Virus record (IMG/VR): IMGVR_UViG_3300042291_000839
Coordinates: 1 to 31,607 of that record
DNA from: a virus
Strand: one strand, 5' to 3'
DNA length: 31,607 nt
Every line of letters starts with the position of its first letter. Position 1 is the stretch's first letter. This document shows, one piece after another, positions 970 through 31,607 of this stretch. A program made the position numbers and the translations under genes. The notes under the pieces were generated by a model. That model ran no database searches. It was not told where the DNA came from and was given only the letters and a program-made list of their open reading frames with translations.

Positions 970-1155
970 GTGATGAGTACGATTATCGTTTGGATTATCC
1001 TTGGATGGATAATCCTGTTGATGCTACACATATTGCTGGTTCTAGCACTACGAACAAGGCAAATGGAAAAGACGCTTGATGAGATAAAAGACGCGGTTGG
1101 CGAAAATGCATATCAGGCGATGTTGAATACTCGAATAAAGAGGTACGAACAATGA
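970..1155 (+). CDS. Small single-pass membrane protein
   Basis: A 60-61 residue protein with one hydrophobic segment at about residues 5-27 (a VWIILGWIILLMLHILLVLAL stretch) and a charged cytoplasmic-looking tail. It starts at GTG 970 or ATG 973, behind GAGG at 961-964, two bases after the sigma factor stop. Its end overlaps the next gene by 4 nt. No family is recognised. Size and topology would fit a small lysis-timing or superinfection protein, but nothing in the sequence shows this. Confidence 0.65.
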   Translation: MMSTIIVWIILGWIILLMLHILLVLALRTRQMEKTLDEIKDAVGENAYQAMLNTRIKRYEQ

Positions 1156-1424
1156 ACGGAATGCAGGCAATACAGGCGCTCAGAGATGGGCACCGTGTAC
1201 GGTCAAAGTCGTGGACATGGAAGGCCAAAGGCATATGGCTACATGCACATGACTGTTGGCCTGAAGAAAAGAATACAATTTCATGTCGAGGTGTTGGTGC
1301 GCTGACAATCGAAGAAGAAGCATTTGAATTGCTCGATTCATTCGATACACGCGCGACATTCGCAAGCCTTGTCCTGGACTTTGTGTGGCGTGATGATTGG
1401 GAGATTGTCGATGAGGTGGAATGA
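1152..1424 (+). CDS. Tad2-like (DUF2829) domain protein, copy 1
   Basis: A 90-residue protein with the layout of the DUF2829/Tad2 family. It opens with an MQAIQALRDGHRVRSKSW stretch (helix, then Gly, basic residue and Trp) and ends with DDWEIV. Family knowledge: some members, such as SPO1 Tad2, bind the signalling nucleotide of Thoeris defence and block it. That this copy does so is inference. AGAGG at 1138-1143 lies upstream of ATG 1152. The gene overlaps the next by 14 nt, and its DWE codons form the next gene's ribosome site. It is one of five such modules in the genome. Confidence 0.6.
   Translation: MNGMQAIQALRDGHRVRSKSWTWKAKGIWLHAHDCWPEEKNTISCRGVGALTIEEEAFELLDSFDTRATFASLVLDFVWRDDWEIVDEVE
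1395..1403 (+). promoter_or_regulatory. Ribosome binding site made by Asp-Trp-Glu codons (copy 1)
   Basis: GATTGGGAG encodes the conserved DWE of the Tad2-like protein and provides GGGAG seven bases before ATG 1411. Confidence 0.6.
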
Positions 1425-1650
1425 GGCCATCGATTGCATGCGCGCTGGCAAGTGGGTACGCCGTGAGTCGTGGGATACCACATGGATGATTCGCATCGAC
1501 GAGACCGTCACGGAGCGCGTTAAGTTATTGCTTATGCCAGGCACGCTCGGTGTGCCTGACTATTCTGACAACAAGATTGGCGCGGGTGAGCTTGCACTCG
1601 CGCTACTCCTCAATGACACGTTTGCTGATGATTGGGAGGACATGGGATGA
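1411..1650 (+). CDS. Tad2-like (DUF2829) domain protein, copy 2
   Basis: A 79-residue protein with the same layout as its upstream neighbour: MRWNEAIDCMRAGKWVRRES at the start (helix, Gly, Arg-Arg, Trp) and ADDWEDMG at the end, with an alanine/leucine-rich helix before it. The middle is unlike copy 1, so the two are distant paralogues and not a recent duplication. ATG 1411 is chosen over upstream in-frame starts because GGGAG lies seven bases before it and because the family similarity begins exactly there. It overlaps the previous gene by 14 nt, and its own GATTGGGAGGA is the ribosome site for the next gene. Confidence 0.55.
   Translation: MRWNEAIDCMRAGKWVRRESWDTTWMIRIDETVTERVKLLLMPGTLGVPDYSDNKIGAGELALALLLNDTFADDWEDMG
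1630..1638 (+). promoter_or_regulatory. Ribosome binding site made by Asp-Trp-Glu codons (copy 2)
   Basis: GATTGGGAG (extended to GGGAGGA, 1634-1640) encodes DWE and sits upstream of ATG 1647. Confidence 0.6.
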
Positions 1651-2021
1651 CATTCGCAGCTATACCGCGACCTAGTAAGGCCGAGATTATTGCGCGCATC
1701 AAAGCGGCTGAACAGCGACAGCGCGCGCTCGATGAGCTCGATGGCGCGACATTGGTATCTAAGTGGACTGGTCGATCATTCGACTTTGTGCCCATGGTGA
1801 AAAGACCATTTACGTCAAACCTGGCAGATTTCCAGAAGCAGGTTGCCGCGTTGCCAACTTACTCTGACGAAAAGTTGTTTATGACAATCGAAAAAGCACA
1901 AGAGATTGTTGACTTTATGCGCGCTCAAGATCCGCCATTGGACCCTAAGTGGTGCGACTATGCGCAAGCGCTCATCGATGCCAAGTTGGCAGAAAAGGAC
2001 GAGAATCAAAATTGTTTATAG
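1647..2021 (+). CDS. Hypothetical protein
   Basis: A 124-residue, mostly helical, charged protein. It starts at ATG 1647 in an ATGA overlap with the previous stop, with GGGAGGA six bases upstream. Residues about 12-40 form a basic/acidic helix, and the C-terminal half contains EIVDFMRAQDPPLDPKWCDY. No family is recognised. Its place between Tad2-like genes and replication genes suggests an early accessory function. Confidence 0.7.
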   Translation: MTFAAIPRPSKAEIIARIKAAEQRQRALDELDGATLVSKWTGRSFDFVPMVKRPFTSNLADFQKQVAALPTYSDEKLFMTIEKAQEIVDFMRAQDPPLDPKWCDYAQALIDAKLAEKDENQNCL

Positions 2022-2719
2022 CCATTCAAGATGACCCTACAGGTGGAGTCGTCAAGACCATTGCGCCAACGCTTGGTCGAGAGGCATTTGCATACACGGA
2101 TGACTACCAGAAATACTTGGACGACTTCAAACGCGTCAAGGATGCACTATTTGAACACTATGCAAAAACCATCAAAGTGCAATCACTTTTTGCTCAGGGT
2201 TCATTTACATCATCGTCTTCGCCGTTTTCGGACGGCGTGATGGTTGCATATCGTAAGCCAAACACATCGATGAGCGCCCTGATGTATGAACCAGAAGGAC
2301 TACAAGTGGCTGCTTATGCACTCACGGCACGTTCAATGCTCCAGTATGACTACATGGCCAGTAAGTGTGAGCAAGAACTCAAACAGCACCTGATTTATCT
2401 GTCAAAAATCAATCCAACGTCACCAAAAACATTGGAGATGACTGATGGTGCGGATCTATTCAATGAGTTGAGAGGACACGCTTTTTTGCATTATTACGAA
2501 CGCAACAATCCGAAGCAGATCACACCAGAAAATAAACACTTCAGCATCACCAATCGCTGGGTAGAAACCTATACGAAGGATGAGGATACAGACTCAGAGT
2601 CAACACTTGTCGTTGATGTGAAGTTTTACGACTGGTCATTCTCGGTCACGTCAGTCGACGGAGTGAGTCCAGTTGAGAATGCCGAGCGCATTGTGTATGC
2701 CTGGGAAAGAATGCTTTGA
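2012..2719 (+). CDS. Hypothetical protein, early accessory region
   Basis: About 235 residues if translation starts at TTG 2012, the first in-frame start after the upstream gene is nearly finished (10-nt overlap, purine-rich AAGGACGAG upstream). The open frame itself extends back to 1949, inside the previous gene. The protein looks globular, with a charged helical first third and a strand-rich end (LVVDVKFYDWSFSVTS). No domain is recognised. The DNA is somewhat richer in A and T than the flanking replication genes. It overlaps the nuclease gene through TTGA. Confidence 0.65.
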   Translation: MFIAIQDDPTGGVVKTIAPTLGREAFAYTDDYQKYLDDFKRVKDALFEHYAKTIKVQSLFAQGSFTSSSSPFSDGVMVAYRKPNTSMSALMYEPEGLQVAAYALTARSMLQYDYMASKCEQELKQHLIYLSKINPTSPKTLEMTDGADLFNELRGHAFLHYYERNNPKQITPENKHFSITNRWVETYTKDEDTDSESTLVVDVKFYDWSFSVTSVDGVSPVENAERIVYAWERML

Positions 2720-3294
2720 GTTCTCAGGCAAGATTGAGCTGCGCGACTGAGTCGCAAGAACAGCAGGCGCTCATCACCTGGTGGCAGACCATGCGAATGC
2801 GTGTGCCTGCCATCGGGCGCTTGTTCGCGATTCCCAACGGCGGACAGCGTAGCATTGCTACTGCTAGTCGTCTGAAGGCTGAGGGCGTGCGAGCTGGCGT
2901 ATGGGACCTGTGTATGCCGACTGAAAAAGGCATCCTCTGGATTGAGATGAAGGTCGGAAACAACAAGCTTACACAGGCACAGGTGGAATGGTGTCGGCAG
3001 GGGGCTGAGTCGGATGAATGGATGGTGGCTTACAACTGGCAGAGTGCCGCTTGGGCAATCCTCGAATACGTTGACAGCAACGATTTACATCCGACTGATG
3101 ACACGATTTTGCAAAAGGCTATAGCCGATCTGGAGATGTACGTCCTGCGGGTACACGCAATAGTCGTGAGGCCTGATCGGTCGCTGGTTGACCTTCAGCA
3201 GATTCACAAGATTCCGTCTCCTGTCTACCAATCTGCTCTGCCATCATCCGCGCAAATGCCCCCGTATGCGGAGGCGCATCATTCCAGGTGCTGA
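2716..3294 (+). CDS. VRR-NUC type nuclease
   Basis: The first ~110 of 192 residues match the VRR-NUC branch of the PD-(D/E)xK nucleases, which in phages act as endonucleases or junction resolvases. Visible hallmarks are a FAIPNGGQR stretch at 37-45, GVWDL with Asp64, and IEMK with Glu77 and Lys79 as the metal-binding ExK. TTG 2716 overlaps the preceding stop (TTGA), with GGGAAAG upstream. The last ~60 residues, including SPVYQSALPSSAQMPP, look unlike a folded domain and lie antisense to the end of a leftward gene. The frame may remain open beyond the functional part. It is followed by primase and helicase genes, which fits a replication or recombination role. Confidence 0.8.
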   Translation: MSSQARLSCATESQEQQALITWWQTMRMRVPAIGRLFAIPNGGQRSIATASRLKAEGVRAGVWDLCMPTEKGILWIEMKVGNNKLTQAQVEWCRQGAESDEWMVAYNWQSAAWAILEYVDSNDLHPTDDTILQKAIADLEMYVLRVHAIVVRPDRSLVDLQQIHKIPSPVYQSALPSSAQMPPYAEAHHSRC

Positions 3295-3514
3295 TGGCAG
3301 ACCGCATATCACGTGCATTTGATAGACCATAACGAGCGACGAGCGCGAAAAAGACCAACCCGTCTAGATCGTGCTCGTCTTCGCTTTTGAGCCCTTGGCG
3401 CATGACGTACTTTGTGCACATCGCGATGGATGCCTGAAAAATAATCCCTTGTTGGTCCCACACATCGACAGGTTCAACGTCCATGTCGGTGTAATATCTT
3501 GGCTGAGTGGTCAT
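3119..3514 (-). CDS. DUF3310-like protein on the opposite strand
   Basis: A 131-residue leftward gene filling the gap between the nuclease and primase genes. Residues 6-63 follow the DUF3310 pattern of phage proteins: an RYYTDMDVEPVDVWDQQ start, then KYVMRQGLKSEDEHDLDGL where the family has a KY-R-G-K-DL block and a hydrophobic helix after it. The role of DUF3310 is not established. ATG 3514 has no ribosome site, but a TATGCT box (3520-3525) lies five bases upstream on the same strand, consistent with a leaderless message. The last 176 nt overlap the end of the nuclease frame tail to tail. Confidence 0.6.
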   Translation of the reverse strand: MTTQPRYYTDMDVEPVDVWDQQGIIFQASIAMCTKYVMRQGLKSEDEHDLDGLVFFALVARYGLSNARDMRSAISTWNDAPPHTGAFARMMAEQIGRQETESCESAEGQPATDQASRLLRVPAGRTSPDRL

Positions 3515-3519
3515 GCCTA

Positions 3520-3525
3520 AGCATA
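3520..3525 (-). promoter_or_regulatory. Candidate -10 box of the antisense gene
   Basis: Reads TATGCT leftward, then five bases, then ATG 3514. It fits the TANNNT form of leaderless promoters; no convincing -35 is seen. Confidence 0.35.
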
Positions 3526-3558
3526 CCACTGGTGCAACGACACCACGCAGGAGGCTAT

Positions 3559-4398
3559 ATGGAAAGAGAAAGTCAAGCCGCGACATTTATGCGCTGGCTT
3601 ATGCGACGCTACACATCCGGCTACATTGAAATCAGGATGTTGTGTCCTGGACAAGGACCGCAGCTCAGTTATCATCAAATCCCACAGACCGACGCAGGCT
3701 GGAGTGAGCTCGCACAAATGTGCATCACGCGCTCAGATCAGGGATGGGACGTGTACTGCGGTGTACTGCCACGCTGGGAGCGTTCGGGGCGCGATGCATC
3801 CGTTGATACAGCCGGCATGCTCTGGGCTGACATCGACGTCATCGGGTCAACAACCGTCGACGAGCTGCGCACAAAAGCGGAGGTTATCGTTTCAAGTGGC
3901 AAGGGTTATCACTTGTACCGGCGCCTTGCAGTATCAACGATTGGCACCAAGAAGACCGAGCAAGCAACCTTTGTGCGTGTCCTGCGCAGCTGGGCGGCTG
4001 GTGTGCATCAAGGCGTTGACATGGCGTCGACAAACGTGTCGCGCATCTTACGTGTGCCGGGCACAAAAAACTGGAAGGACCGCGAGCATCCGAAAGATGT
4101 AAGATTGATGCTCTATCCAGCTGATGCCGTCGAGGCGCAAAGCGATGATGGACACCCGTGGTCAAACACGTGGGTCGAATATCTCAACCTTGCGCGCCAG
4201 GGGATGCTTCCTGTATATGACAGCAACGCACTACTAGGCAAAACAAAGAGAGGAGGTAACTACTATACGTACGACATCGGGGGCTCAGTACTCGATGTAG
4301 AGTGGATGAGGCGGACATATCCAAGCATGAGCGAGCACGCATACGAGTGCGCGACATTGCTTGTACGGCATATCAGGAGGTTGAACGATGTTAGATAA
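3559..4398 (+). CDS. Archaeo-eukaryotic type primase (AEP superfamily, RepB-primase-like)
   Basis: A 279-residue protein expected to make primers for phage DNA synthesis. The catalytic signature is visible: GMLWADIDVI with the DxD pair at Asp91 and Asp93, then SSGKGYHLYRRL at 112-123 with the family histidine (His118), then NVSRILRVPGTKNWKD, the usual R-x-x-R-x-PGT-N-K block. ATG 3559 is chosen because AGGAGG (3549-3554) lies four bases before it; a longer in-frame ATG at 3499 has none. It overlaps the helicase by 11 nt. The PriCT domain that usually follows such a primase is at the N terminus of the next gene, so one function appears split over two coupled genes. Confidence 0.85.
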   Translation: MERESQAATFMRWLMRRYTSGYIEIRMLCPGQGPQLSYHQIPQTDAGWSELAQMCITRSDQGWDVYCGVLPRWERSGRDASVDTAGMLWADIDVIGSTTVDELRTKAEVIVSSGKGYHLYRRLAVSTIGTKKTEQATFVRVLRSWAAGVHQGVDMASTNVSRILRVPGTKNWKDREHPKDVRLMLYPADAVEAQSDDGHPWSNTWVEYLNLARQGMLPVYDSNALLGKTKRGGNYYTYDIGGSVLDVEWMRRTYPSMSEHAYECATLLVRHIRRLNDVR

Positions 4399-5710
4399 TG
4401 AGCAAGTCAATGAGCTTGCGGAGCTGTCGCTCGAGGATCTCGCGGCGATTTTACAAAGTGGTGACGAGAGGCGTGTCACTGCGGTGTTGTCATCAGGCAA
4501 GAGTACATGGTCGCAGGTTTTCCGCCCGCATGGCGAAGGCACGCGCAACGCTGGTCTGGTGGGTTACTGTGGATTCCTCCGCGCAAAGCGATTCGAGTAT
4601 GACCATGCGCTTTACCATGCGCTGGTCTGGAACGATGCTTACTGCGTCCCACCTCTGCCACGTGATGAGGTCGAGCGGACCATTAGTAGGTTTTGGGTCA
4701 CTTGGGCGCAAGGCACAATCCCTGACGCCACGCCAGGAATAACGCCAACTGGCGCATGGGAGATTTGGGATTGGGACCGGATGCTGACCGAGGAGCAAAA
4801 TCTAGGCGCGCAACAGTGGCTCGTTGACAAGGTATTTGCAGTCGGTGGACTCCACTACTTATCAAGCCCACCGGGGACAGGCAAGACATGGGTGATGCTT
4901 GATCTCATGCGCGCAGCTCTTGATGGTGGTCAATGGCTCGGCGAGTTTGATATCCCGCAGACGCCAGTTATGTACATCGATGAGGAGATGGGCCTGCGTA
5001 AGCTCATGGGGCGACTCAGGAGGCTTGGGTTGAAGTCAGGTGCAGGTTTGACCTATACCAACCGCGTAGGCGTCCGTATGGACACGATGATTGACACCAA
5101 GCGCGTACTCGATCACTGCCAAGCCACGGGCACACGGCTGGTGCTGATTGACTCCCTGGTGCGAATCCACGGGCTTGATGAGTCCGACAACAGTCAGATG
5201 CGTATGCTTTTCGAGCGGTTCAAGTTTTTACTCGAGGCAGACATCGCCGTTGTGATTGCACACCATGACCGCAAGGGCGGCACAGCGGGCGGTATAGCGC
5301 ACGAAGGCATGCGTGGTGCAGCGGAGATTGTTGCAGCTGCAGATGCCGCATACAGCCTCTCTCGTGTGGACAAGGGGCAATACCGCATCCAGACCACCAA
5401 AGGTCGCTTGGTGGGCGAGGATGAGGCCCTAGACGTGACGTTTGAAATCGCCGATGATGGCGGTCAAACACGCATCCGAACGGTTGATAAAGATGCGCGT
5501 GCAGCTGTCGCCGCAAAAGCCATACAAGACGAGCTGTTGGAAGCAATCGAGAACGGGCAAGGGCTTGGCATCAACATGTTGGCAAAGCAACTCGGAAAGC
5601 GCAAAGCAACGCTTCAGGACGTACTCCAGCAGATGCTCGGGGATGGGCTGATAACGTCTCAGCGAGGCCCAAATGCGTCCGTTTTGTATTACCCGCGAGG
5701 GCTGATTTAG
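4388..5710 (+). CDS. PriCT domain plus RepA-like hexameric replicative helicase
   Basis: A 440-residue protein. Residues about 50-103 match the PriCT module found C-terminal to primases (GTRNAGLVGYCGFLRAKRF, then CVPPLPRDEVERTISRFW). The RecA-like core follows, with Walker A PPGTGKT at 161-167, MYIDEEM at 195-201, Walker B LVLID at 251-255 and IAHHDRK at 290-296, as in the AAA_25/RepA helicases. The C-terminal ~60 residues look like a winged helix (GLGINMLAKQLGKRKATLQD). AGGAGG at 4375-4380 precedes ATG 4388 by seven bases. The protein should unwind DNA at the fork together with the upstream primase. The repeat-rich region just after the stop is a candidate origin it could act on. Confidence 0.9.
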   Translation: MLDNEQVNELAELSLEDLAAILQSGDERRVTAVLSSGKSTWSQVFRPHGEGTRNAGLVGYCGFLRAKRFEYDHALYHALVWNDAYCVPPLPRDEVERTISRFWVTWAQGTIPDATPGITPTGAWEIWDWDRMLTEEQNLGAQQWLVDKVFAVGGLHYLSSPPGTGKTWVMLDLMRAALDGGQWLGEFDIPQTPVMYIDEEMGLRKLMGRLRRLGLKSGAGLTYTNRVGVRMDTMIDTKRVLDHCQATGTRLVLIDSLVRIHGLDESDNSQMRMLFERFKFLLEADIAVVIAHHDRKGGTAGGIAHEGMRGAAEIVAAADAAYSLSRVDKGQYRIQTTKGRLVGEDEALDVTFEIADDGGQTRIRTVDKDARAAVAAKAIQDELLEAIENGQGLGINMLAKQLGKRKATLQDVLQQMLGDGLITSQRGPNASVLYYPRGLI

Positions 5711-5716
5711 GCGCCT

Positions 5717-5783
5717 CAAGTGGTTCCCACAAGTGGTTCCGCAAGTGGTTCCCCTTTAAGTATATAAATATGGGAACCACTTG
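5717..5783. repeat. Iteron-like repeats, three direct and one inverted
   Basis: CAAGTGGTTCC occurs at 5717-5727, 5730-5740 and 5742-5752 with 13- and 12-base steps. GGGAACCACTTG at 5772-5783 is the exact reverse complement of the first copy extended by one base. The AT-rich stretch lies between the third and fourth copies. Confidence 0.9.
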
Positions 5784-5814
5784 TAAAAACCCCCCTTATA
5801 AATCCCCCCGTTTA

Positions 5815-5858
5815 GGCGGCCTACGGCACCGCCACTACAACCGCCTACGGCGGGGTTG
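5815..5858. repeat. GC-rich hairpins with a shared 9-mer
   Basis: GGCGG (5815-5819) can pair with CCGCC (5829-5833), and CCGCC (5841-5845) with GGCGG (5849-5853) around a TAC loop. The 9-mer GCCTACGGC occurs twice, at 5819-5827 and 5843-5851. From 5859 to about 5985 I see nothing further. Confidence 0.6.
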
Positions 5859-5985
5859 GCATGTAGACAGTTAAACATCTTGGTGGTTAAAGAATGTTTG
5901 AAATGCGGTGGTCCTGGTACCCGCTCCCAGAGGTCGCGGTGTACCGAGACCACACGCAAGGTATGACAGAATCTCATTTGAGCCC

Positions 5986-6015
5986 TTGCGGTTTTATGCG
6001 GGTTTATGTTATAAC
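5986..6015 (+). promoter_or_regulatory. Sigma-70-like promoter for the SSB-like gene
   Basis: TTGCGG (5986-5991), an 18-base spacer and TATAAC (6010-6015). The expected start of transcription, 6-8 bases later, falls at the base of the hairpin at 6022. Confidence 0.5.
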
Positions 6016-6021
6016 CATGAG

Positions 6022-6039
6022 ACCGGGCGAAAACCCGGT
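6022..6039 (+). promoter_or_regulatory. Hairpin at the expected 5' end of the SSB-like message
   Basis: ACCGGG (6022-6027) pairs with CCCGGT (6034-6039) around a CGAAAA loop. The ribosome site AGGAG (6041-6045) follows directly. It could protect the message end or expose the ribosome site to autoregulation by the encoded protein. Confidence 0.6.
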
Positions 6040-6053
6040 AAGGAGAATCAATA

Positions 6054-6689
6054 ATGGCAGGGTTTTTTCAATCGACGGGATTCCGCCCAGACGCGGTACC
6101 CGCAACAGCTGGCACATACGTGTGCCGGTTGGCATCACTCAACATTGTCCAGCGCCCGAAGTATCAACAGCCTGGGGTTTTTGAAGATCAGTATGAGTTT
6201 GCATTCGAGACAACGCAGGTTGTCGACCGCAACGGCAATCCGTATAGATTCCGCAAGTGGACTGGCATGACATACGGTAGTGACCGTGCTCACCTCACCG
6301 CACTGATGGACACGATGCTCGGTCAGCGGTTTACATCACAGCAATGGTCACAGCTGAATGACCAGATTCTTTTTGGTGGTTCGTGGAATGTTACGGTTGA
6401 CTGGGTGGCACCTCGCAACGAGAACAGCGAAGGGTCAAACGTCATTGTCTCGGTCTATCCGGCGACACCTGCTCCACAGCAAGCATACGCGGCGCAAGCA
6501 CCACAGGCTCCAGTCGCTCAACAGGCAGGCTGGACGCAACAACCACCTGTACAGCCACAGCGACCACAGCAACCGCCACAGGCGCCACAGCAGGGTTATG
6601 TACAGCCAGCACCGCAACAGCGCGGACAAAGACAGGGTAAGCCTGCACAGGACGCGTTTGGCGAGATTGCTGATCCATTCGGCGAATAG
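6054..6689 (+). CDS. SSB-like single-stranded DNA binding protein
   Basis: A 211-residue protein called by architecture. Residues 1 to about 145 look like a strand-rich OB-type domain (YVCRLASLNIVQRPKYQQPG and later FGGSWNVTVDWVAPRNENS). A flexible Pro/Gln/Ala linker follows to about 198. The C terminus is acidic with an aromatic tip, ending ADPFGE. Bacterial SSBs have the same plan, with a tail ending DDDIPF that recruits partners. The primary-sequence match to known SSBs is weak, and another ssDNA-coating or replication-scaffold protein is possible. It has its own promoter, a leader hairpin, AGGAG eight bases before ATG 6054 and a terminator right after, so it is a single-gene unit that can be expressed strongly. 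Confidence 0.7.
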   Translation: MAGFFQSTGFRPDAVPATAGTYVCRLASLNIVQRPKYQQPGVFEDQYEFAFETTQVVDRNGNPYRFRKWTGMTYGSDRAHLTALMDTMLGQRFTSQQWSQLNDQILFGGSWNVTVDWVAPRNENSEGSNVIVSVYPATPAPQQAYAAQAPQAPVAQQAGWTQQPPVQPQRPQQPPQAPQQGYVQPAPQQRGQRQGKPAQDAFGEIADPFGE

Positions 6690-6697
6690 GCGATAAC

Positions 6698-6722
6698 GGC
6701 CCGGAGCAATCCGGGCCTTTTT
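6698..6722 (+). terminator. Rho-independent terminator after the SSB-like gene
   Basis: GGCCCGGA (6698-6705) and TCCGGGCC (6710-6717) form a perfect 8-bp stem with a GCAA tetraloop, followed by TTTTT (6718-6722). Confidence 0.92.
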
Positions 6723-6736
6723 AGCAGGAGACAAAA

Positions 6737-7048
6737 ATGGCATTTGAAAATGAAAATGAAATCGGTATCAAACCGGTCACCGATTACACGCTGGAGGAGT
6801 TACAGCTCGCGTACGGGCGCATTCATCAGCAGATGGAACTGCTGACACTTAGATTCGACATGCTTCAAAAGATTGCTGAGGACAAGTACAAGGAGATGCT
6901 TGAGTCTGTCACTCTCGCGAAGGAAGAGGCGACGCTGGCAATCGCACTCACAAAGCAACAAATCATCGCTCGCGTAGAGCTGCTTGAAGCATCCAACATG
7001 ACGCTTACTGACAATGTCGAGGAGGCGATGGCGAATGGCACGGACTAA
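6737..7048 (+). CDS. Small coiled-coil protein
   Basis: A 103-residue, almost wholly helical protein. From residue about 15 it has heptad-like spacing of leucines and charged residues (EELQLAYGRIHQQMELLTLR and onward), so a coiled coil is likely. AGGAG at 6726-6730 lies six bases before ATG 6737. It is the first gene after the SSB terminator and overlaps the next by 14 nt. No family is recognised. Confidence 0.75.
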   Translation: MAFENENEIGIKPVTDYTLEELQLAYGRIHQQMELLTLRFDMLQKIAEDKYKEMLESVTLAKEEATLAIALTKQQIIARVELLEASNMTLTDNVEEAMANGTD

Positions 7049-7274
7049 GCGCGGGATGGCTTTCGAGCGTGTTATCCGTGTGCTAGCAGAAGGGCGTGCA
7101 ATCCGTCGCATGGCGTGGCCTCCACGCGTGTGCCTACGACATCACGACGATGACATCTACATCGAGATTGGTGCACTGCCACGGCAGGTATGGCGACCAC
7201 ATGGATCCGATATCCTGGCGCGAGATGCGGATGGCCAGCTCGTGATCACCTCTGATTGGGAGGTGGTTGAATGA
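7035..7274 (+). CDS. Tad2-like (DUF2829) domain protein, copy 3
   Basis: A 79-residue protein with the module seen in copies 1 and 2: FERVIRVLAEGRAIRRMAWP near the start, a strand-rich middle with a QVWRPHGSDILARD stretch (the family often has a W-P and a D-I-L-A-D near its end), and TSDWEVVE at the end. GGAGG at 7021-7025 lies upstream of ATG 7035. It overlaps the coiled-coil gene by 14 nt and the next gene by ATGA. The charged DNA-level context matches its neighbours. A role against host defence is inference from family only. Confidence 0.6.
   Translation: MARTKRGMAFERVIRVLAEGRAIRRMAWPPRVCLRHHDDDIYIEIGALPRQVWRPHGSDILARDADGQLVITSDWEVVE
7254..7262 (+). promoter_or_regulatory. Ribosome binding site made by Asp-Trp-Glu codons (copy 3)
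   Basis: GATTGGGAG encodes DWE and gives GGGAGG eight bases before ATG 7271. Confidence 0.6.
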
Positions 7275-8050
7275 TTACTATCCGTTCTCTGGGCGACATC
7301 AAGCGTGACCCAGCATCAGCGTCAAGAGCATCTTATGGTGGCAGTCGAAATAATAACTACTCATATGACTTTTGCAGGGATGCGATTGACGAAATGGCCA
7401 AACGTGTCAACGATGGAGACACATTGTCGAACGCGTCGCGCGATGTGCTAGGGCGTCAATCAGCAGTACATTACATGTATAGTCGATTCCCAGACCTCAA
7501 ACGCAGATTTGATGATGCCATTAGTCGCGATTGGTCACACAAGGGGTCTGTACCCGATGCCGAAAAACTCGAGAGGGCAAAAGCATTCTGGGACCTCGTT
7601 GATGACGGCGCACCATGGTTTGAAGCTGCTAAGAAATCCAAATGTCCTACGTCTAACTATCAACGATGGATGCAAAACGTCGAAGGGTTTCAAGAGTATT
7701 GGGATTCACGGCGCGAACAGTTTCGCGTGGCGCGAGCTGAGAATCAGAGGTTGCGACGTCAAATGTCGAGAGAGGAAAAAGCAAACATGCAGACTGCGCC
7801 ACGTGCAGGTGAGCCACCAGTCATCGAGACAATCAAGCCGGTGGAATCCTCGTCATTTGGCGCAGCTGTCATGATGATGAGATCTGGTGCCAAGATTCGG
7901 CGTAAGGGCTCGAGTACGGTTTACCAGGTTGTGCATGGGCGAGTGACTGAGATGCGCGTTGTGCTCAAAAAGACGCAGGTCGTTGGTCTCGCCTACTTCA
8001 ATGGTCAGGATGTATTGGCGTTAGATTGGGAGGTCGCAAATGACGTTTGA
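7271..8050 (+). CDS. HTH-repeat protein fused to a Tad2-like module (copy 4)
   Basis: A 259-residue protein in three parts. Residues about 35-145 hold two similar helical repeats, each with a Gly-containing turn and ending in an aromatic/charged helix (RFPDLKRRFDDAI and VEGFQEYWDSRR). This resembles the helix-turn-helix repeats of some small terminase and transposase-like proteins. Residues about 150-185 are a basic, likely disordered linker. The last ~70 residues repeat the Tad2-like pattern (FGAAVMMMRSGAKIRRKGSS to ALDWEVAN). It starts in an ATGA overlap. The combination of a possible DNA-binding part with this module is unusual. The HTH call is from pattern only. Confidence 0.6.
   Translation: MITIRSLGDIKRDPASASRASYGGSRNNNYSYDFCRDAIDEMAKRVNDGDTLSNASRDVLGRQSAVHYMYSRFPDLKRRFDDAISRDWSHKGSVPDAEKLERAKAFWDLVDDGAPWFEAAKKSKCPTSNYQRWMQNVEGFQEYWDSRREQFRVARAENQRLRRQMSREEKANMQTAPRAGEPPVIETIKPVESSSFGAAVMMMRSGAKIRRKGSSTVYQVVHGRVTEMRVVLKKTQVVGLAYFNGQDVLALDWEVANDV
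8024..8032 (+). promoter_or_regulatory. Ribosome binding site made by Asp-Trp-Glu codons (copy 4)
   Basis: GATTGGGAG encodes DWE and gives GGGAGG before ATG 8040. Confidence 0.6.
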
Positions 8051-8483
8051 TGCAAATGCAATGAATGACATGATGTCTTGCAAAATGTCTGAGCAGGTAA
8101 GTATCACTAAGTGTATTGATGGCATGCAAGTACGAATCGCCATTACGGGCGACATTGAGCCCAATGTCTGGCTCAGTTGCAAAGGATACGCAATCCTGCA
8201 CGTGCTTGCAATGGGTGGCAAGATTCGGTGTAAGCGATGGACGCAGGGATGTTATGTCTATATGGAGTCCGACGAGGATGGTGATGATGGCGAGATGTAT
8301 TTGACATCACGTGGCACAGATGTGTTTTGCCACGACGTCCGTACACTTGGCGTTTTTATCCTGGACGACATCATCAACATGTTGCATTCGGATTCATTCG
8401 AGGTGATGCTTGATGGTGACAAGGCGCACTTTATCCTGAGATGCGCACAGGCATTCCATTTGCAATCAGAGAGCACAGAATGA
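8040..8483 (+). CDS. Protein with a divergent Tad2-like module (copy 5)
   Basis: A 147-residue acidic protein. The segment ILHVLAMGGKIRCKRW at about residues 52-67, followed by strands and an acidic loop, repeats the start of the Tad2-like module (helix, Gly, basic residues, Trp), but the closing DWE motif is absent. The first ~45 residues and the last ~35 are extra. GGGAGG (8028-8033) lies six bases before ATG 8040, and the gene overlaps its upstream neighbour by 11 nt. Membership in the family is weak and rests on position and the N-terminal pattern. Confidence 0.5.
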   Translation: MTFDANAMNDMMSCKMSEQVSITKCIDGMQVRIAITGDIEPNVWLSCKGYAILHVLAMGGKIRCKRWTQGCYVYMESDEDGDDGEMYLTSRGTDVFCHDVRTLGVFILDDIINMLHSDSFEVMLDGDKAHFILRCAQAFHLQSESTE

Positions 8484-8623
8484 CAACGGCACTTATCGTG
8501 GTTGCATCAGCTGCTGTCATGATGCTGATGATTGGCGCATCAATCATTGGCTACTGCGCATATGTGTGTCGTGCTATTGAGTCGACCTATGAGACCGCAG
8601 GCGTGCGTGATGACATCGCTTGA
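8480..8623 (+). CDS. Very small membrane protein
   Basis: A 47-residue protein with a single hydrophobic segment over residues about 3-28 (ALIVVASAAVMMLMIGASII). It starts in an ATGA overlap with the previous stop. A longer in-frame ATG at 8441 lies inside the previous gene. No family is recognised. Confidence 0.55.
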   Translation: MTTALIVVASAAVMMLMIGASIIGYCAYVCRAIESTYETAGVRDDIA

Positions 8624-8948
8624 TATCTCTAAGTCATGGGAGGACAACGCTAAGCAGTTACGGCTGCTTGGCGTTGAGCCACTTAACATGCATGACTATT
8701 ATCGCGACTATGCCAAACGTTACATGCGCTCCAAGCGGTGGAAAGAGACACGTGATCGCATCCTGGCTGTTACTGCTGGATGTTGCGCTCGGTGTGGTGC
8801 AAGCCGCGAACGATACAAGGTAGATGTGCATCACCTGACATACGCTCGCTTTGGTGCTGAGCTTGATGCAGATCTGTTGCCACTGTGCTATCGATGCCAT
8901 GGCACAGTGCACTACGTACGCAACATGCGCCAGGATAAGGCACAATAA
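8610..8948 (+). CDS. HNH endonuclease next to terminase
   Basis: A 112-residue HNH nuclease with a zinc-binding ribbon. CxxC is at Cys59 and Cys62 (CARCGASR), the VDVHHLTYARFG block is at 72-82 with His74 and His75, and a second CxxC-H at 93-97 is followed by His101 (LCYRCHGTVH). In HK97-type phages such a protein beside the terminase genes assists DNA packaging or cleavage by terminase. ATG 8610 is chosen because upstream residues in this frame are the shadow of the membrane protein gene, which it overlaps by 14 nt. Confidence 0.88.
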   Translation: MTSLDISKSWEDNAKQLRLLGVEPLNMHDYYRDYAKRYMRSKRWKETRDRILAVTAGCCARCGASRERYKVDVHHLTYARFGAELDADLLPLCYRCHGTVHYVRNMRQDKAQ

Positions 8949-8952
8949 AGTC

Positions 8953-9327
8953 ATGCAAGGTAAGCCAATCGACCCAGATATCGTTGTTGCAATTCAAGCT
9001 GCGCTCATCGCAGGACAGCGACAAGCAGACGTCGCGCGTCAGCATGGTCTGCCAGCATCAACCGTGATGCGCATCCGCAAGCGCATGACGGAAGAGCAAA
9101 TGCAAGCGCTTGCAACAACTAAAGAACGCGAGCAGACGCAGCTGGATGACATGCTCGTTGAGCTGCTCGCTGACAACATCAAAGCTATGTCAGGCATAGC
9201 AAGGACCGCTCAGGATGCTCAGTACCGCCAAGGGCAAAACGCCGATGCCCTCGCTAAGCTCTATACAGCGATTGCAACTACGTCGCTTCAGATTCTCACC
9301 GCCGCAGCAGAGCCAACCGATAACTGA
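8953..9327 (+). CDS. Terminase small subunit (putative)
   Basis: A 124-residue protein at the place of the small terminase, which recognises phage DNA for packaging. Residues about 10-36 form a helix-turn-helix (AIQAALIAGQRQADVARQHG, then LPASTVMRIRKRM). The rest is helical, as expected for the ring-forming part. ATG 8953 has no clear ribosome site. A CACAAT box with six bases to the ATG is a weak match to the leaderless motif seen at the portal and holin genes. The end overlaps the large subunit reading frame. Confidence 0.7.
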   Translation: MQGKPIDPDIVVAIQAALIAGQRQADVARQHGLPASTVMRIRKRMTEEQMQALATTKEREQTQLDDMLVELLADNIKAMSGIARTAQDAQYRQGQNADALAKLYTAIATTSLQILTAAAEPTDN

Positions 9328-31249: not shown

Positions 31250-31567
31250 ATGGTAAAGACAAAACGACAACTGACATGTCAGTTATGCTCATGCATCAGA
31301 ACGGTAACGACAGACCCATCAAGCGGGAATATCTGGCTATGCTCGTGTGGCCATATCAACTCCCTGCGCATATCTGACTTGTACGTCGATTACATGGTGC
31401 CTCGCAAAAAAGAGCGCAGGCATCCACTTGTTACGGTTGCGATGGTGCTTGCAGCTCTCTCTGTTGCATATCTCCTGGCGCAGGATCTCCGCAACAGTTG
31501 GCAACGTGAGCAGGTATTCCGAGCGCGTGTGGCGGCTCAAGACTTGGTCGGTCACACTCCCGATTAG
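31250..31567 (+). CDS. Zinc-ribbon plus single-pass membrane protein
   Basis: A 105-residue protein that runs across the circular junction (its end is repeated at 1-87). Residues 9-34 hold a ribbon with CQLC and CSCGH pairs, and residues about 62-76 are a membrane segment (VTVAMVLAALSVAYLLA). A basic stretch (PRKKERRH) precedes the span, so the ribbon probably lies in the cytoplasm. It is 24 bases after the XRE gene, with AGAAGGA upstream, and one base before the sigma gene, so the three likely form one operon. No family is recognised. Confidence 0.75.
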   Translation: MVKTKRQLTCQLCSCIRTVTTDPSSGNIWLCSCGHINSLRISDLYVDYMVPRKKERRHPLVTVAMVLAALSVAYLLAQDLRNSWQREQVFRARVAAQDLVGHTPD

Positions 31568-31607
31568 GATGCGCATCAAGTCATGGAGGCAATATGCACG
31601 CCTACCA
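31481..31607. repeat. Terminal direct repeat, right copy
   Basis: Identical to 1-127. It includes the first 39 bases of the sigma factor gene (from 31569). Confidence 0.95.

Follow-up and report, generated by a model that had tools for sequence, protein, structure and literature searches.

Five divergent homologues of the nucleotide-binding protein Tad2, designated T1 to T5, are encoded by the virus contig IMGVR_UViG_3300042291_000839, whose 31,607 bases together form the window analysed here, and one of them, T4, is fused to two predicted helix-turn-helix (HTH) domains, an arrangement that recurs in 42 of the 47 phage relatives with enough upstream sequence. Tad2-type proteins act in other viruses as single-gene sponges of bacterial alarm molecules. 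The assignment of T1 to T3 rests on sequence profiles and that of T4 and T5 on structural models as well, and we describe the five as divergent homologues rather than demonstrated gcADPR sponges because their individual scores fall below the curated cut-off and the canonical GW-N-G-K loop is absent.

Genome and relatives

Positions 1-127 and 31481-31607 of the genome are the same 127 bases, so that it is probably complete, circular or circularly permuted, and about 31.5 kb long. Among its genes are those for a sigma-70-like factor, for replication, for ERF recombination and for a terminase, with portal, capsid and tail proteins as read from the remaining ORFs. The sigma-70-like factor (regions 2 and 4; 26-967) adjoins the T1-T2 cluster and has a counterpart in the relatives. 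The nearest isolated phages have only distant terminase and portal genes in common with the genome, and the search for a host through portal relatives in genomes was uninformative, with three short matches in three phyla. Related phage contigs, given L-numbers below, were gathered through portal similarity and supplied the relatives' Tad2-like genes.

Five Tad2-like copies in two gene chains

All five ORFs are present in the ORF list of the genome at the positions given in the preliminary description (Table 1), and for each the best Pfam match is PF11195 (Tad2-like), T4 and T5 scoring 13.4 and 14.3 bits; every copy lies below the gathering cut-off of 25 bits, which copies in the relatives exceed in 11 of 33 records. 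Since the individual scores were weak the copies were tested jointly, using a window-free profile built from the relatives' Tad2-like genes only, some of them above the Pfam cut-off. Among the 433 window ORFs this profile placed exactly T1 to T5 in the top five ranks (41.5, 40.6, 23.7, 12.7 and 12.3 bits in order of rank), the next ORF reaching 2.6 bits; scores of 12,990 shuffled ORFs peaked at 10.4 bits, lower than every one of the five. T3 was matched at E 3.1e-12, and at 3.1e-8 when its own orthologues were left out of the profile. No sixth Tad2-like copy was found among the 433 ORFs, and by this profile the copy number is exactly five at this sensitivity. As background, PF11195 at E 0.01 per genome gave two single-match genomes among 274 and none among 296 in another set; this 31.6-kb record holds four matches at E < 0.001. 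Single sequences reach less far: T1 matched three PDB chains by phmmer, all of them Tad2/AcrIIA7 but weakly (E 0.21-1.1), and T2 and T3 matched no Tad2 chain in the PDB by phmmer and reach Tad2 through profiles alone. The best single relative of T2 is in L050 (E 2.4e-5), while scans of viral contigs with the single proteins found no relative of T1 or T3 and one contig for T4 and T5.

Table 1 Features of the two Tad2-like clusters (positions in the window)
Feature	Position	Strand	Evidence
T1, stand-alone Tad2-fold protein, 90 aa	1152..1424	+	PF11195 20.7 bits, full length; window-free profile E 1.1e-6
T2, stand-alone Tad2-fold protein, 79 aa	1411..1650	+	PF11195 20.1 bits; window-free profile E 5.8e-12
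Intrinsic-terminator-like hairpin and T run, upstream of second cluster	6698..6717	+	8-bp stem, loop 4, TTTTT
Small coiled-coil-like protein, first ORF of second cluster, overlaps T3	6737..7048	+	Only weak Pfam matches
T3, stand-alone Tad2-fold protein, 79 aa, alternative start 7014	7035..7274	+	PF11195 22.0 bits
T4, two HTH domains, long helix and C-terminal Tad2-fold domain, 259 aa	7271..8050	+	AlphaFold model
T4 first HTH domain, residues 29-89	7355..7537	+	Sf6 small terminase subunit, Z 5.4, 59 residues; modest score
T4 second HTH domain, residues 94-156	7550..7738	+	Putative Trp repressor, Z 4.3; modest score
T4 Tad2-fold domain, residues 193-257	7847..8041	+	Structural and family-profile matches to Tad2
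T5, N-terminal extension and divergent Tad2-fold domain, 147 aa	8040..8483	+	AlphaFold model
T5 Tad2-fold domain, residues 46-124	8175..8411	+	Top ten structural matches are Tad2 chains

The shared ends described earlier are largely as reported. A Gly-basic-Trp start is present in four copies and fails in T4, where the Trp is absent from the protein and from its relatives, and the DWE end is indeed found in four (T1-T4), T5 ending in SFEVM and its more distant relatives in SWQVM. The two clusters are likewise seen as two chains of overlapping genes, T1/T2 and T3/T4/T5, with overlaps at 1411-1424, 7271-7274 and 8040-8050, and since neighbouring genes overlap each chain is probably translationally coupled. 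Terminator-like sites are no more numerous in the region of the hairpin upstream of the second chain than in shuffles; the relatives carry a similar hairpin between an SSB-like gene and the fusion gene, and this inverted repeat is conserved and terminator-like in appearance. The SSB-like proteins before the fusion (relatives of 6054-6689, e.g. L045 4749-5255) give Tad2-profile matches of 9-15 bits around QALTVLLDGMLGRRL, a weak signal that reflects chance or a very remote relation, and these matches were excluded from the Tad2 counts.

T3 has orthologues about 50% identical to it in L008 and L009, which also carry T4-like genes. Orthologues of T1 and T2 were found in no relative examined, where only other Tad2-like genes at other places were seen, which marks T1 and T2 as the patchy part of the set. 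Compared with L007, dN/dS is 0.17 for T4 and 0.10 for T5, values that point to working proteins under purifying selection and give no sign of diversifying selection on the middles of these two. Over about 7487-9260, identity to L007 is about 76% in T4 and T5, against 99% in TerL and portal; synonymous divergence is raised too, which fits recombination, and a recombination boundary likely lies before TerL.

Evidence for a Tad2 fold

When the PDB was searched with a profile of the stand-alone type (T1, T2, T3 and relatives), every match at E < 0.001 was a Tad2 chain, the best being Myroides ModTad2 (E 7.8e-7), and this supports a Tad2 fold for T1 to T3. The profile of the T4 C-terminal family, made without the stand-alone copies, had Tad2 chains as its six best PDB matches (E 1.4e-4 to 1.6e-3), with SPO1 Tad2 at 1.4e-4. 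AlphaFold models were made for T4 and T5, the two most doubtful copies, from 30 sequences (pLDDT 78) and from only four, T5 and three orthologues (pLDDT 75), respectively. For the T4 C-terminus the ten best structural matches were all Tad2 (Z 9.1-10.3, rmsd 1.8-1.9 A; next row 5.8). The ten best for T5 were also all Tad2, at Z 4.9-5.6 over 70-75 aligned residues, with the next unrelated row at 3.5. By Foldseek alone Tad2 chains ranked first or second, without significance. The comparison with Tad2 structures that the preliminary description had called for thus returns a predicted Tad2 fold in both of these copies.

A conserved HTH-Tad2 fusion

In its AlphaFold model T4 begins with two predicted HTH domains, the second with helices at residues 96-111, 116-123 and 127-136, which a long helix separates from the Tad2 domain; among the 30 members of its family Pfam finds HTH_23 in 18 (best 1.3e-11) and a Tad2-like domain in 20. 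The 47 loci in which the fusion was counted are related contigs with at least 2.7 kb upstream of the portal gene. A separate scan, with some contigs in common, turned up relatives of one fusion sub-type in at least 97 viral contigs, a floor because only two patterns were used; 80 of the 97 were kept and 75 had enough downstream sequence. A Tad2-like gene lies downstream of the fusion in all 75 of these loci, in 74 by the script rule and in one about 230 nt downstream. In L074 (789-1858) and L066 (6621-7931) the fusion is followed by three stand-alone Tad2-fold genes, overlapping or nearly so. Adjacency of fusion and follower is not universal in the wider family, as other genes separate them in L008 and L009 and a ThyX-like gene does so in L061. 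In the close relatives L008 (7118-7378) and L009 (5392-5652) the intervening genes include an XRE-like HTH gene. Stand-alone Tad2-fold genes adjoin ThyX-like thymidylate synthase genes in L122 (2991-3224), L123 (3779-4039) and L061 (4837-5466).

Searching 50,697 isolated phage records by tblastn with two fusion proteins gave no convincing relative of the HTH-Tad2 fusion. The C-terminal parts of PHROG 872 and PHROG 1048 match Tad2-fold copies of this genome, so Tad2-like C-termini behind other domains have probably been catalogued already, and judging by these matches the two PHROGs may hold architectures comparable to T4. A canonical Tad2 query found 362 places in 360 of the isolated phage records, about one each, in a tblastn search that would overlook copies as divergent as T1-T5. 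T4 also resembles the Aca (anti-CRISPR-associated) HTH regulators in being an HTH protein within a chain of small counter-defence-like genes, its neighbours in the chain being putative anti-defence genes. Aca proteins are not known to carry a Tad2 domain.

Pocket loops and known Tad2 proteins

Tad2 is a tetrameric sponge with its pockets between protomers, the gcADPR pocket lying around the beta1-beta2, beta3-beta4 and beta4-alpha3 loops (PMC12043709). SPO1 Tad2 binds gcADPR and MoTad2 binds His-ADPR (PMC13299392), and cyclic dinucleotides can be bound as well (PMC12043709). We compared the sequences of three structure-solved proteins, SPO1, Myroides and Hgm Tad2. In all three a GWNGK loop follows the first strand and a W-x-[AP]-S-x-x-D stretch precedes the final D-W; we assigned both to the pocket loops by sequence rather than by structure. 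In this comparison the GW-N-G-K loop is absent from T1-T5, its position being taken by SWTWKAKG in T1, SWDTTWM in T2, AWPPRV in T3, KGSSTV in T4 and RWTQGC in T5, and the second stretch is partial in T3 only (WxP..SDILA). The segments on the pocket side differ from copy to copy, and none of the five retains the canonical residues of the loop. At this level the ligand of the copies is not readable and gcADPR binding is not to be assumed.

SPO1 Tad2 (Gp34.65; PDB 8sme, 8smf, 8smg, 8wje) has the same fold by profile and by structure, and its helix-Gly-basic start and D-W end recur in most window copies; it has the GWNGK loop and a WVPSQTD stretch, whereas the window has five copies with these loops replaced and one copy with HTH domains. 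Myroides ModTad2 (PDB 9eib with hisADPR; 8v3e) has the same WxP..SDILA as T3 but differs in a GWNGK loop that no window copy has. HgmTad2/AcrIIA7 and SptTad2 (PDB 8kbi-8kbm, 8wjd), also of this fold, show one family handling cyclic dinucleotides and cADPR isomers. At 101-104 aa, against 79-90 aa for T1-T3, these proteins carry a long insertion that reportedly holds the cyclic-dinucleotide site (PMC12043709).

Possible roles of the copies

The five copies most likely arose by ancient duplication and are encoded in the two chains of overlapping, probably coupled genes. We infer from its predicted HTH domains that T4 is a DNA-binding protein, whose Tad2 domain would most likely serve oligomerisation and/or nucleotide binding, and which makes up a conserved and probably regulatory module together with the next Tad2-fold gene downstream, T5 in this genome. 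T1, T2 and T3 would most likely be oligomeric binders of nucleotide signals, that is candidate sponges, with ligands other than or beyond gcADPR. Counter-defence genes are usually accessory and patchy in distribution. Near-constancy in the relatives makes the fusion and its follower resemble core phage machinery, the DNA-binding part favours regulation for this module, and the patchy copies T1-T3 read as accessory in the manner of counter-defence genes; for these reasons we favour a regulatory module alongside nucleotide sponges, a combination to which we give an even chance. Counted against it are the absence of the GW-N-G-K loop from all five copies, HTH structural matches at Z 4-5 only, and the separation of fusion and follower in L008, L009 and L061.

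The preliminary description had suggested that the copies could be sponges that differ from one another in their ligands. Taken to include T4, whose HTH part would then only autoregulate the operon in the manner of Aca proteins, this draws on the fold common to the copies, on the variation of their pocket-side segments and on known Tad2 homologues with different ligands (PMC13299392, PMC12043709). The shared fold is compatible with that proposal, but the conserved HTH fusion speaks against a plain-sponge role for T4: nearly all relatives with enough sequence have the fusion, unlike typical patchy anti-defence genes, and the T4 domain lacks both the Trp and the canonical loop. A lineage-wide HTH fusion is more readily understood as regulatory than as a mere sponge, and sponge function for all five seems to us doubtful. 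It is rather improbable, too, that the Tad2 fold binds no nucleotide here and serves only as a scaffold for oligomerisation or for nucleic-acid binding, with the copies as hetero-oligomer subunits alongside T4. The overlap of genes within the chains, the tetrameric state of Tad2 (PMC12043709), the missing canonical loops and the Sm-fold proteins among the Foldseek matches of T4 would all agree with such a scaffold; the Sm-fold matches are weak, however, and the solved Tad2 relatives, including structures matched by the T4 and T5 models, comprise complexes with gcADPR, hisADPR and cGG. That T4 is a small-terminase-like packaging protein with an incidental Tad2 domain is very unlikely, even though its HTH part resembles the Sf6 small terminase and small-terminase PHROGs and its gene lies about 1.2 kb upstream of the large terminase gene, since a separate HTH gene (8953-9327) directly precedes the large terminase gene, as a like gene does in L045, L066 and L010, and in L074 the fusion and its train of Tad2-fold genes follow the SSB-like gene despite a different terminase.

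The Tad2 fold has been known as a single-gene sponge, and here several overlapping Tad2-fold genes are found in one lineage. Together with the conserved HTH-Tad2 fusion this multi-copy lineage suggests that the fold has perhaps been reused to control genes in addition to countering defence. In its boldest form, which we regard as unlikely, the fusion would act as a transcription factor of the phage: its sponge-derived domain would detect immune nucleotides of the bacterium and, jointly with the Tad2 partner, it would switch phage gene expression once host alarm signalling begins, the trains of paralogous Tad2-fold genes being its arsenal. If T4 does bind both DNA and a nucleotide, these phages would be able to sense host immune signalling.
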